Shown here: positions 2,827 to 18,496 of the stretch, in pieces
Numbering within the stretch: position 1 is the first letter of the stretch
Layout of the letters: the number at the start of each line of letters is the position of its first letter
Made by a program: the position numbers and the translations under genes
Notes under the pieces: model-generated
Told to the model about the DNA's origin: nothing
Seen by the model: only the letters and a program-made list of their open reading frames with translations
Databases searched by the model: none
Origin: a virus
Reading direction: 5' to 3' (one strand)
Virus record (IMG/VR): IMGVR_UViG_3300032288_002071
Span: 1 to 55,715 of that record
Length of the DNA: 55,715 nt

Positions 2827-2988
2827 ATGAAAACTTGGTCCTTAGAAGTACAAAAACTCGAAGATGGTGATCAATACATTGAGTTTCCCAAAGAACTCAT
2901 GGATGAGGTTGGTTGGCAAGATGGTGACGTTCTTGAATGGACACCAAATGAAGATGGAAGTTGGACATTAACTAAAAAGGAGAAATAA
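2827..2988 (+). CDS. AbrB/MazE-like swapped-hairpin DNA-binding protein
   Basis: A 53-residue protein whose pattern IEFPKELMDEVGWQDGDVLEWTPNEDGSWTLTK matches the AbrB/SpoVT/MazE swapped-hairpin fold: a strand, the P-x-E-L-x-x-x-x-G-W-x-x-G-D-x-L-E-W motif, then a closing strand. Single-domain members occur widely in T4-type phages and are annotated as transcription regulators or antitoxin-like proteins. Its stop overlaps the ATG of the rubrerythrin gene (TAATG at 2986-2990), so the two are co-translated. DNA binding is inferred from family; no operator can be assigned. Confidence 0.75.
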   Translation: MKTWSLEVQKLEDGDQYIEFPKELMDEVGWQDGDVLEWTPNEDGSWTLTKKEK

Positions 2989-3425
2989 TGAGTTCGTTAA
3001 AAGGCACAAAAACTGCCGAGTGTTTGAAAGAAGCATTTGCAGGTGAATCAATGGCAAACCGCCGTTATCTATATTTCGCAAATCAGTGTGATATCTCTGG
3101 TGAGAACGATTTAGCTGCACTGTTCCGCTCAACTGCTGAAGGTGAGACAGGTCACGCACACGGTCACATGGAATATCTAATTGAAGGTGGTGCAGGAGAA
3201 CCTGGTACAGGTATGCCAGCAAAAACTGGTAAAGAAATGCTAGAGGCAGCAATCAGTGGTGAAACACACGAATACTCTGATATGTACCCAGGCATGGCAA
3301 AAATAGCACGTGAAGAAGGTTTTGATGAAGTTGCTGATTGGTTTGAAACACTAGCAAAAGCAGAACGTTCACATGCTAATCGTTATCAGAAAGCATTAGA
3401 CAAACATCTTGCTGATAATGCTTAA
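2988..3425 (+). CDS. Rubrerythrin-type diiron protein
   Basis: A 145-residue four-helix ferritin-like protein. The diiron ligands expected for rubrerythrin are in place: E20, E53 and H56 in GETGH, E92 and E95 in ETHEY, E126 and H129 in AERSH. It has only the diiron domain; the C-terminal rubredoxin domain with its two CxxC pairs is absent, as in short erythrin-type proteins of aerobes. Rubrerythrins reduce hydrogen peroxide, and a cytosolic protective role against oxidative stress during infection is a reasonable inference. It is co-translated with the AbrB-like gene and lies 84 bases upstream of pqqA. It is uncommon phage cargo, so it is a candidate auxiliary metabolic gene. Confidence 0.88.
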
Positions 3426-3440
3426 TGTAGTTTAATGATT

Positions 3441-3485
3441 TTGCTTATGAAACTTGAGTGCTACAATCTCTACATAGAATTGTAG
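3441..3485 (+). promoter_or_regulatory. Leader of the pqqA gene: weak promoter and perfect inverted repeat
   Basis: TTGCTT (3441-3446) and TACAAT (3462-3467) form a weak promoter with a short 15-base spacer. CTACAAT at 3461-3467 and ATTGTAG at 3479-3485 form a perfect 7-base inverted repeat with an 11-base loop. It could be an operator over the -10 box or a hairpin in the leader. A good ribosome site (AGGAGAT, about 3499-3505) follows before the ATG. Confidence 0.45.
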
Positions 3486-3509
3486 TATTCAACATCCTAG
3501 GAGATAACT

Positions 3510-3584
3510 ATGAAATGGGAAACACCTTCAGCACAAGATATGCGTTTTGGTTTTGAAATCACAATGTACATCGCAAATCGTTAA
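3510..3584 (+). CDS. pqqA: PqqA: precursor peptide for pyrroloquinoline quinone
   Basis: A 24-residue peptide that is almost a consensus PqqA. It begins MKWETP and ends GFEITMYIANR, with Glu16 and Tyr20 in the E-x-x-x-Y spacing. In the known pathway PqqE (with PqqD) links the Glu and Tyr side chains of this peptide, and later enzymes process the joined pair to PQQ. Usual length is 22-29 residues, so the gene is full length. It has a strong ribosome site (AGGAGAT), its own short leader with an inverted repeat, and a terminator right after the stop, so it looks like a functional single-gene unit. No pqqB, C, D or E is present in the window, so host enzymes would have to process it. The peptide is short enough to be missed by automatic gene calling. 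I infer that it raises or maintains PQQ supply for host dehydrogenases during infection. Confidence 0.88.
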   Translation: MKWETPSAQDMRFGFEITMYIANR

Positions 3585-3587
3585 AAC

Positions 3588-3614
3588 AAAGCGGCTACCA
3601 AGCCGCTTTTCTTT
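3588..3614. terminator. Bidirectional terminator after pqqA
   Basis: Stem aaagcggct/agccgcttt with loop acca (3588-3609), followed by T-rich sequence on the plus strand and preceded by an A-rich stretch that serves the minus strand. It separates pqqA from the convergent minus-strand gene, whose stop (3595-3597) lies in the stem. Confidence 0.85.
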
Positions 3615-4621: not shown

Positions 4622-4651
4622 TTGACAATCACGGTCTATTTATGCTATAAT
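4622..4651 (+). promoter_or_regulatory. Consensus sigma70-type promoter, TTGACA-18-TATAAT
   Basis: Both hexamers are perfect: -35 at 4622-4627 and -10 at 4646-4651. It precedes the 4685-7018 gene run that includes RNase H, consistent with early expression of replication functions. Confidence 0.85.
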
Positions 4652-4684: not shown

Positions 4685-5752
4685 ATGAGTAAAGCAATTG
4701 ACATTAAAGCAATCTTATCAAATAACAAAGAACCCAAGTTTACGGGTGAATTGTCACAAACACAACTGACCCAGGCGCTGAACTGGTACGCTCAGAATAA
4801 AGATAACAAAGACGCAACAAAGTACGCTTCTGACTTTCTAAAAAAGAAACACAAAATAGCGGGCTCTGAGGGGCTAAAAACTGTCCCTAGTACATTTGGA
4901 TTCCTATGTCGCATTGTGAGCAATGGGGGCGTTCTGAGCGGTTCTAATAGTACGTTTTTCAATGAAACCATCGACAAACTCAAACAAGCAACACCAGTTG
5001 TCAAGCAGACAACCACAAATGTCTTATCAATTCAAGATCATATTAAAAGAAAAGCAAGTGATTGTATTGGAGAACTGGAAGGTCAAATTGACGAATTGAT
5101 AACGTCAGAATTCAAAGCAAATGTTTCACCTTTTGCAACAATGACAGGTATGGAAATAAAAGGTGCTCATACCAAATTTGTAATTGACTATTTTAAAACA
5201 CGCCGTCAGGAGTATGATGAAGTTTTGACAACAGATGATGATGATGTCAAAGAAGCATATTCCAACTTTACAAAAACGCAACTGAAAAAACTGGTAGCAT
5301 ATTGCGACCAAGTGATTCTTGACGGCATGAAGCTTGCAGGTGAGTCAATCAAAACACGTAAGCCACGCAAACGCAAAGCAAAGTCGCCAGATCAAGTTGT
5401 GGGCAAACTAAACTACGCAAAAGATTTTGCTGAACTAAAACTTGTATCGATTGATCCTAAAACGATCATCGGTGCTTCATCACTGTGGGTATATAATACC
5501 AAAACACGTAAGCTGGGTGTGTATCAAGCACTTGACGCTGCTGGATTGAACATCAAAGGTTCGACGATACAGAATTTTGCTGAGAGTAAATCAATCAGCA
5601 AAACACTGCGTAAACCAGCGGTGACTATACCTGAAGTTTTAAAAGGCGGCAAAGTTGCTCTGCGTAACGTACTAACAAACATACGTGCCGCTGAAAAAGT
5701 GTTGACAGGTCGTATCAACAATGATACAATTCTTTTGAGAACAGTAAAATGA
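4685..5752 (+). CDS. Conserved phage protein of unknown function, upstream of rnh
   Basis: A 355-residue protein without a domain I recognise. It contains a helical N-terminal half (residues 1-180), a strongly basic patch near 225-240 (KTRKPRKRKAKSP) that could contact nucleic acid, and a more compact C-terminal region. Proteins of this size and charge pattern sit near replication genes in marine T4-type phages. Both a consensus early promoter and a late-type element precede it. Its stop overlaps the start of rnh (ATGA at 5749-5752), so it is translationally coupled to a replication exonuclease. A nucleic-acid-related role is inference from the basic patch and neighbours only. Confidence 0.65.
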   Translation: MSKAIDIKAILSNNKEPKFTGELSQTQLTQALNWYAQNKDNKDATKYASDFLKKKHKIAGSEGLKTVPSTFGFLCRIVSNGGVLSGSNSTFFNETIDKLKQATPVVKQTTTNVLSIQDHIKRKASDCIGELEGQIDELITSEFKANVSPFATMTGMEIKGAHTKFVIDYFKTRRQEYDEVLTTDDDDVKEAYSNFTKTQLKKLVAYCDQVILDGMKLAGESIKTRKPRKRKAKSPDQVVGKLNYAKDFAELKLVSIDPKTIIGASSLWVYNTKTRKLGVYQALDAAGLNIKGSTIQNFAESKSISKTLRKPAVTIPEVLKGGKVALRNVLTNIRAAEKVLTGRINNDTILLRTVK

Positions 5753-8200: not shown

Positions 8201-8697
8201 TGAAAGTACAAGATACTGAAATTGAAGGCTTGAAAATTGTCATGCCTATTGTATATGAAGATTTTCGTGGTACGAACTTTGAGGCGTTCAATAAATTTAC
8301 ATATCATCACGAAGGTATAACACAGTCTTTTTTGGTAGATAGTATTTCTACTTCACGCAAACATGTGTTGCGTGGCATTCATGGTGATGATAAAACAACG
8401 AAACTTGTTTCATGTTTGTATGGTAGCATTTATGTTGTTGTGTTGGACCGTAGACCTGGTTCACAAACATACAATCAGTGGCTATCATTTAATCTATCGG
8501 ACAGAAACAAACATCAATTACTGATACCACCAGGTTGTGGTAATGGTCACCTTGTGATGTCTGATGAGTGTGTATTCAGCTATAAGCTTGACCAATACTA
8601 TGATCGTAAGTCACAGTTTACAATCAAGTGGAACGATCCTACATTTGAGATTTACTGGCCCGTAAAACATCCTATTTTGTCAGAAAGAGATAGATGA
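8200..8697 (+). CDS. RmlC-like dTDP-4-dehydrosugar 3,5-epimerase family protein
   Basis: A 165-residue cupin of the RmlC family. Matching segments are VLRGIHGDDKTTKLVSCLYGSIYVVVLD, which carries the conserved R-G-x-H with the catalytic His, and LLIPPGCGNGHLVMSD. RmlC epimerises C3 and C5 of a 4-keto-6-deoxy sugar nucleotide on the way to rhamnose-type sugars. Related enzymes act only at C3 or C5, so the product here is open. It is slightly shorter than typical RmlC (about 180 residues). It overlaps its neighbours by one to four bases. Confidence 0.85.
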   Translation: MKVQDTEIEGLKIVMPIVYEDFRGTNFEAFNKFTYHHEGITQSFLVDSISTSRKHVLRGIHGDDKTTKLVSCLYGSIYVVVLDRRPGSQTYNQWLSFNLSDRNKHQLLIPPGCGNGHLVMSDECVFSYKLDQYYDRKSQFTIKWNDPTFEIYWPVKHPILSERDR

Positions 8698-9677
8698 GAA
8701 CAGCATTTGTGACAGGTGGTGCAGGTTATCTTGGTTCACACTTAGCAAAAGCATTAAAGCAAGCCGGTTATTACACATTCTGCTTTGATTTAAAAATTCC
8801 AGAAAATAAAAAATACTGGGACAATTATGCATTTGGTGATGTGCGTAATTGGGAAGATTTGCATCAATCTTTTGAAGATTTACGTTTGATCCATAATAAA
8901 AAACCAGACGTTGTATTTCATCTTGCAGGACTAATTGAAGTTGGACTATCAGTAGAAAATCCGATTGACTTTTGGGAAACAAATGTCGGCGGCACTTGCA
9001 ATCTACTCTCCGTAATGAAAGCATTTCATGTTAATAATATTGTTTATTCTTCTACTGCCGGTCTTTATCGTCCTCAGTTTACCACGCTCTCAGAGAAAGC
9101 CGAAGTAGGCAGCAACAATCCGTATGCCAATAGCAAGTATGCTGCTGAATGTGCTATTCGTGATTCAAAACTGAATCATGTAATCTTTCGTTTCTTTAAT
9201 CTTGCTGGTGCTGATCCAGATGGTGAAATGGGCGAATCACATGATCCAGAAACACACTTGATTCCAAGAATGTTTGAAAGTCTAAATAATCAAGAGTTCT
9301 ATATTTACGGAAACGATTATAATACTTCAGATGGCACGTGTATAAGAGATTATGTACATGTGTCCGACATTGCAGATGCACATATACTGGCTGACCAGTA
9401 TCTGCAAACTCCATATGCAAATCAGCCACGAACATTCAACTTAGGAACTGGTAAAGGTCATTCAGTATTAGAAGTGATACAAACTGCCGTGACAGAGTTA
9501 GACATTCCTATTCTTTATTTGTTTAGAGAAAGACGAGATGGTGATCCGTCAAGATTGGTCGCCAACTGTGATTCCGCTAAACGATATCTAAACTTCAAAC
9601 CGAAACATAATTTAAAATCTATTTTGAGAACTGCGTATACTTGGTATGGAAAACAAAGAGACAGAACTACCGTTTGA
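8694..9677 (+). CDS. GalE-like NAD-dependent sugar-nucleotide epimerase (extended SDR)
   Basis: A 327-residue extended short-chain dehydrogenase. The Rossmann motif TGGAGYLGSH is at residues 7-16. The active-site elements are SSTAGLY (Ser/Thr) and YANSK (Tyr-x-x-x-Lys), followed by FRFFNLAGADPDGEMGE and RDYVHVSDIADAH, all typical of UDP-glucose 4-epimerases. It probably converts UDP-glucose to UDP-galactose or a related pair and supplies donor sugar to the glycosyltransferase. It begins inside the stop of the RmlC-like gene and its end overlaps clpP by 32 bases. Confidence 0.88.
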   Translation: MRTAFVTGGAGYLGSHLAKALKQAGYYTFCFDLKIPENKKYWDNYAFGDVRNWEDLHQSFEDLRLIHNKKPDVVFHLAGLIEVGLSVENPIDFWETNVGGTCNLLSVMKAFHVNNIVYSSTAGLYRPQFTTLSEKAEVGSNNPYANSKYAAECAIRDSKLNHVIFRFFNLAGADPDGEMGESHDPETHLIPRMFESLNNQEFYIYGNDYNTSDGTCIRDYVHVSDIADAHILADQYLQTPYANQPRTFNLGTGKGHSVLEVIQTAVTELDIPILYLFRERRDGDPSRLVANCDSAKRYLNFKPKHNLKSILRTAYTWYGKQRDRTTV

Positions 9678-18027: not shown

Positions 18028-18176
18028 TTGTTTGTGTTTGTAGAAACATTAAAGAATCAGATTTTGAAACACAAGAAGAACTGGTCGAACGCATAATGCA
18101 ATGCGATCATAATTGTGGACAGTGCCAAGAGTATTGTACACAGTTGAAAGAATTGTTGTATATCCCTTCAAAGTGA
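18024..18176 (+). CDS. BFD-like [2Fe-2S] ferredoxin
   Basis: A 50-residue protein starting at a GTG that overlaps the upstream stop (GTGA). The Cys pattern C4-x-C6 and C31-x-x-C34 (VCVCRNIKESDF and CGQC) matches the bacterioferritin-associated ferredoxin domain, with a shorter gap between the Cys pairs than in E. coli Bfd. Bfd-type domains carry a [2Fe-2S] cluster and help release iron from bacterioferritin; the same domain occurs in redox enzymes. A fourth downstream Cys (C38) is extra. The 3' end runs into the region that should form the acceptor half of the tmRNA, so the two genes probably overlap. Confidence 0.8.
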   Translation: MIVCVCRNIKESDFETQEELVERIMQCDHNCGQCQEYCTQLKELLYIPSK

Positions 18177-18480
18177 AGGCATTCTGGACGTGGGTTCGAC
18201 TCCCACCATCTCCACCAAAAGCATATTGTAGAAACACATGAGCAGGTTTCTCACTACCGCTGGTTACGTATAGAATCGTAAGTGAGTGTAGGCAGTATGC
18301 TTCTGATGGGGATGACAAGGTTTCGACAGGGTGAGATAGTGGAGAAGGCAACACGAAAGGCGACGGACGTAATCCGAGCAAATTAGTAAATGCAAATGAT
18401 GCATTTTATGGAGAAGAACGCCTAGCAGCGTAATCTCTTGGGGTTTACGAGAGTGTACCTTATTACCCAAACACTCTCAC
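18158..18480 (+). ncRNA. ssrA: Circularly permuted (two-piece type) tmRNA
   Basis: The acceptor half comes first: GGACGTGGGTTCGACTCCC (T-arm) and then catctcc-A-CCA ending at 18217. After a 90-base intervening segment the coding half starts at 18308 with ggggatg, which pairs over seven positions with catctcc, followed by the typical caaggtttcgacaggg. The tag frame starts at GCA 18392 and reads ANDAFYGEERLAA, stop TAA 18431-18433. It is followed by a pseudoknot-like hairpin (GAGAGTGT 18449-18456 with ACACTCTC 18471-18478; GGGT 18441-18444 can pair with ACCC 18465-18468). tmRNA rescues stalled ribosomes and tags the nascent protein for proteases such as ClpXP. This order is the permuted form that is cut into two RNAs. 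The 5' limit of the acceptor piece is not resolved and probably overlaps the ferredoxin gene. Confidence 0.9.
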
Positions 18481-18496
18481 CAATTTCTTTTATATT

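Follow-up and report, generated by a model that had tools for sequence, protein, structure and literature searches.

The window, meaning the whole stretch of DNA that was analysed, is a 55,715-base virus record of T4-like character, with genes for gp32, RNase H, a helicase loader, a baseplate wedge and a tail tube cap. Twelve tRNA genes lie at 291-1359 and 2738-2815, eleven of them forming a single array close to the left end, and a gene resembling NAD-dependent epimerases and GDP-mannose dehydratases occupies 8694-9677. The locus studied here comprises the following features:

2827..2988, + strand: MazE/AbrB-like small protein (PF04014, 22.3 bits, just below cut-off), preceding the rubrerythrin gene in the syntenic clade
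2988..3425, + strand: rubrerythrin-like protein of 145 aa (Pfam PF02915, E=1.7e-25), upstream partner in a putative transcription unit
about 3454..3492, + strand: leader hairpin (predicted fold) in the 84-bp gap between the rubrerythrin gene and pqqA, absent from the syntenic relatives read
3499..3503, + strand: Shine-Dalgarno sequence AGGAG, 6 nt before the pqqA ATG by direct reading
3510..3584, + strand: pqqA, encoding the 24-aa PQQ precursor peptide MKWETPSAQDMRFGFEITMYIANR with Glu16 and Tyr20, which syntenic relatives keep in the corresponding position
3588..3609, + strand: rho-independent terminator, AAAGCGGCTACCAAGCCGCTTT followed by a T-run, of the rubrerythrin-pqqA unit (fold z -5.4)

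An earlier note on this DNA had described the peptide as a near-consensus PqqA with a Glu16-x3-Tyr20 pair and had staked that reading on similarity to PqqA in a profile search. Such similarity was found with two curated models, Pfam PF08042 (E=8.8e-10, 38.8 bits, cut-off 21.1) and NCBIfam TIGR02107 (E=7e-10, 38.5 bits, cut-off 20), and direct reading places Glu16 and Tyr20 with three residues between them, the Glu-Tyr pair being what PqqE joins in PqqA (PMC10906245). A chance match is excluded even when the several thousand segments of a six-frame translation of 55 kb are corrected for, also because syntenic relatives keep a PqqA peptide, and the ORF is, judging from its sequence, a genuine PqqA gene. 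Debris is likewise ruled out by the curated models, synteny and selection combined: the view of a working gene holds, with syntenic relatives keeping pqqA at the same spot under a pN/pS of about 0.2.

The ribosome site is present as had been claimed, whereas the supposedly perfect inverted repeat of the leader pairs at 12 of its 14 positions as DNA, the other two forming G.U pairs in RNA. The leader (84-90 nt) folds strongly in RNA (z -2.3), has no second copy of its hairpin within the window and is particular to this phage among the syntenic relatives read. The stretch immediately upstream of pqqA yielded no sigma-70-like site, and a T4 late promoter was rejected, TATAAATA occurring four times in the window, which is a chance number, and nowhere near pqqA. 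A perfect sigma-70 consensus (TTGACA-18-TATAAT with extended TG) is present at 4622-4651, before the gene at 4685.

Relatives of the locus were gathered from IMG/VR with the rubrerythrin protein and the protein encoded at 4685-5752 as queries, not with PqqA itself. Their gene order is AbrB-like gene, rubrerythrin gene, pqqA and terminator. The rubrerythrin-like protein of the window scores below the cut-off of the NCBIfam rubrerythrin model. pqqA starts a few bases past the rubrerythrin stop in most of them, and in several the stop codon merges into the ribosome site (TAAGGAG). Three relatives (L441, L442 and L443) have the same neighbours without pqqA, with the same kind of terminator right after the rubrerythrin stop. 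pqqA is thus a cassette of ~75 bp that is cleanly gained or lost between the rubrerythrin gene and its terminator. The terminator that had been assigned to pqqA does exist as a hairpin with a T-run, but because it is also present in these three relatives it belongs to the rubrerythrin-pqqA unit as a whole, and the idea of pqqA as its own transcription unit was rejected.

That these close relatives live without pqqA shows that the gene is not essential; where present, selection maintains it intact, as substitution pattern and expression signals show. Across 24 distinct copies found via neighbour genes only, pN/pS is 0.195, and it is 0.21 for six isolates. The value of 0.26 over 221 viral copies among the matches listed is biased downwards, this set having been picked partly by peptide pattern. 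When the codons for Glu and Tyr were left unconstrained in a scan, every match listed still had these two residues; both are kept in all 235 full-length distinct viral copies among those matches, and the stretch around them is the best-conserved part of viral PqqA. The expression signals are similarly retained among the matches listed: a Shine-Dalgarno core of at least 4 nt precedes 234 of 234 scorable viral copies (25% in shuffles), one of at least 5 nt precedes 95% (5% in shuffles), and a terminator-like hairpin lies no more than 75 nt away in 47% (1% in shuffles).

The gene is not peculiar to this virus. The search for PqqA frames proposed in the earlier note was fruitful: tblastn of 50,697 phage records revealed pqqA in Melnitz (four isolates), Venkman, P19250A, MEP301, MEP401, MEP402 and the uncultured phage ctXG6705. 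Of the ten GenBank phage records so obtained, nine belong to phages that infect Methylophilales/Methylophilaceae and one to the uncultured phage, and in IMG/VR at least 236 distinct gene-plus-flank contexts were fetched as viral loci, including contigs of 148-365 kb. The latter collection was scanned by three DNA-pattern scans with at least 120 matches each, so that all counts are lower bounds. The sole other matches in the phage collection were two records of "Acinetobacter phage MD-2021a", left out as host contamination; one of them (CAKLQF020000010.1) encodes polyphosphate kinase as well as a pqqABCDE operon of bacterial type. For MEP431-434, HIM624-A and EXVC038S, which may be absent from the collection, there was no match, and the nine isolates are not to be taken as all isolates.

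The terminases of the pqqA phages are unrelated or only distantly related, except those of Venkman and ctXG6705 (MEP401 being near-identical to MEP402), and at least five lineages therefore hold the gene. No pqqA match came from the SAR11 phages that are related to them in capsid or terminase (Mosig, HTVC008M, Hodr and many HTVC phages), and in the same collection pqqA shows no comparable spread among phages infecting other PQQ-producing bacteria, Pseudomonas for example. The gene had been thought too short for usual gene callers, in agreement with its being annotated in none of the ten GenBank records; antisense hypothetical coding sequences are annotated over it in Melnitz (L001:3967-4062) and ctXG6705 (L006:2067-2195), and no PHROG matches PqqA.

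Viral pqqA travels without the enzymes of its pathway. Among the matches listed, PqqB, PqqC, PqqD or PqqE was found at 0 of 144 viral pqqA loci, versus 39 of 119 bacterial ones; the pqqBCDE neighbourhood missing at the viral loci is usual for one host copy but does not define PqqA. In the 49 long pqqA-bearing viral contigs listed, no protein passed the PqqE cut-off (best 37.6 bits against 381); radical SAM matches, all far below that cut-off, occurred in 12 of them, with several generic ones in some large contigs. A PQQ methanol dehydrogenase was encoded by one of the 49 long contigs among the matches listed. This Melnitz-like contig (IMGVR_UViG_3300025120_009955, 28000-47900; L585) carries pqqA together with methanol dehydrogenase and formate dehydrogenase genes, the metabolic genes and pqqA sitting between Melnitz-like curli genes and a phage-family adenylate cyclase:

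L585:5990-7864: PQQ methanol dehydrogenase
L585:7944-10784: molybdenum formate dehydrogenase alpha
L585:14071-14790: SoxYZ fusion (SoxYZ-type protein)

The host of the virus in the window is a separate question from that of the isolates. Its PqqA is nearest to those of Comamonadaceae and Thauera (21-22 of 24 residues identical); its identity with the best Methylophilaceae PqqA is no more than 61-67%. A two-piece tmRNA of betaproteobacterial type lies at 18072-18492 (RF01850 137 bits, RF04321 149 bits; tag ANDAFYGEERLAA). Compared with host genomes it has no clear nearest group, and phage tmRNAs are only distant; the cut-off of the betaproteobacterial model is passed by 1 of 25 Methylophilaceae and by 0 of 41 genomes of the family of the Comamonadaceae genome. 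The tmRNA of Melnitz, unlike that of the window, was described in its publication as alphaproteobacterial. Because of the peptide's closeness to Comamonadaceae and Thauera PqqA and the two-piece betaproteobacterial tmRNA, the host is probably a PQQ-making betaproteobacterium, and methanol oxidation may not be the pathway that benefits there.

In the hosts of the isolates, precursor genes are plentiful. We found pqqA in 149 of 150 Methylophilaceae genomes, mostly in several copies, and 3-12 copies have been reported beside one pqqBCDE set (PMC4109929), some host copies being free-standing (PMC9851590). Given several pqqA copies with a single pqqBCDE set, hosts also raise precursor dosage alone, and these copies, together with xoxF being the top transcript in an OM43 strain (PMC5120137), are consistent with a need for precursor dosage.

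PqqA is consumed at one molecule per PQQ, whereas the enzymes PqqB-E turn over. We propose, with a probability of roughly 0.7, that the phage would provide the one consumable of PQQ synthesis, borrow host PqqB-E and so keep PQQ dehydrogenases running. The infecting phage would transcribe pqqA together with the rubrerythrin gene; host PqqD would bind the peptide and host PqqE cross-link Glu16 and Tyr20, after which a host protease, PqqB and PqqC would complete PQQ for loading into host PQQ dehydrogenases, in methylotrophs the methanol dehydrogenase. Once host gene expression is halted by the phage, the short precursor would be exhausted first while the catalytic PqqB-E persist, which may explain why only pqqA is carried: alone it would be the least costly means of sustaining the PQQ supply of methanol or other PQQ dehydrogenases. 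The earlier proposal of a candidate auxiliary metabolic gene limited to the precursor is strengthened by the curated models, the purifying selection and the enzyme-free loci, as well as by the presence of pqqA in phages of cultured PQQ-dependent methylotrophs and by the contig with methanol and formate dehydrogenases. A point against precursor supply is that the precursor may not limit PQQ in uninfected cells, overexpression of pqq genes having given modest gains (PMC9851590).

Other readings of the locus account for part of these data. A host pqqA, often free-standing, could have been captured and carried passively without benefit, and both the many copies in Methylophilaceae, which would make capture easy, and a cassette that comes and goes among close relatives are in keeping with this; purifying selection, a conserved Shine-Dalgarno sequence, a frequent terminator and recurrence in at least five unrelated lineages, with no such spread in Pseudomonas phages, for instance, make it unlikely. 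It is quite unlikely that the peptide was recruited from PqqA to give a non-PQQ product, or works in its unmodified form, perhaps as a regulator. Phage and host PqqA overlap residue for residue, some being identical (one 23-residue peptide among them), and although the generic radical SAM proteins of some large contigs and a clade partner that is rubrerythrin instead of a PQQ gene would suit such a role, the former score well under the PqqE cut-off and were seen in a minority (12 of 49) of the long contigs listed.

The peptide might also serve as a decoy that occupies host PqqD and PqqE and lowers PQQ synthesis, thereby diverting the host from respiration that depends on PQQ or keeping superinfecting phages out. 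Since PqqA is bound by both proteins (PMC10906245), an excess could in principle compete with the host peptide, but the reactive pair, whose Glu and Tyr are invariant in the viral copies listed and lie in the most conserved stretch, would be superfluous in a decoy, and in one phage pqqA is accompanied by a phage-borne methanol dehydrogenase gene; we consider this very unlikely. Misclassified bacterial DNA, of which the full pqq operon in Acinetobacter phage MD-2021a is a real case, can be dismissed almost entirely. For the window it is refuted by genes of T4 type (baseplate, gp32 and helicase loader) and for the isolates by the presence of pqqA in their own genomes, and 98 of 138 IMG/VR loci (two scans, among the matches listed) share at least two proteins with isolates, other known phages or the window. 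A host-type metabolic gene thus resides within genuine phage genomes.

Precursor supply to host PQQ synthesis remains the preferred reading, and the occurrence of pqqA in hundreds of viral sequences from the environment, as well as in Methylophilales phage isolates, suggests that viruses may feed the methanol oxidation of their hosts during infection. We also lean, with somewhat less assurance, towards the broader view that methylotroph phages have repeatedly and independently taken up a precursor-only RiPP gene of 23-24 codons, missed by nearly all annotations on account of that length, and borrow the enzymes, PqqA supply being what would limit energy metabolism in the infected cell. Auxiliary metabolic genes usually encode enzymes or photosystem proteins; if the supply reading is true, a phage controls a cofactor via the substrate peptide only, spending some 75 bp on it. 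The gene would link viruses to methanol oxidation in water, and cultured test pairs exist (OM43 with Melnitz, Venkman, MEP301 and MEP401/402; LD28 with P19250A). Gene callers and viral protein families, which include no PHROG for PqqA, systematically miss such short genes.

Phage-borne pqqA as such is known, while its breadth, repeated acquisition, precursor-only form and rubrerythrin cassette are undescribed in the literature searched; in the publications describing Melnitz, MEP301 and MEP401/402, term searches turned up nothing about PQQ genes in these phages. Coutinho et al. reported PqqA and methanol dehydrogenase in viral contigs from Lake Baikal (PMC7678222). Their VP_266, a T4-like virus with a predicted Methylophilaceae host, likewise bears pqqA, but is a single population in which the gene was read together with methanol dehydrogenase, whereas here pqqA stands alone in nearly all listed contigs and spans at least five lineages, cultured phages included. 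That paper also reads radical SAM proteins as PQQ biosynthesis, in contrast to the long contigs listed here, where nothing exceeds the PqqE cut-off. Virus-encoded pqqA, pqqD and pqqE have been named as phosphate-solubilisation genes in reservoir sediments (PMC13188868), a report that shares pqqA with ours and, in the part available to us, is framed around phosphorus cycling without sequence analysis. Compared with the bacterial members of its family (PF08042; TIGR02107), the window peptide is alike in sequence, length, Glu-x3-Tyr spacing and above-cut-off scores, and differs in being phage-borne, without pqqB-E and in a unit with rubrerythrin. The closest parallel in strategy is the multi-copy pqqA of Methylophilaceae (PMC4109929), which similarly provides more precursor without more enzymes, but from the host chromosome.
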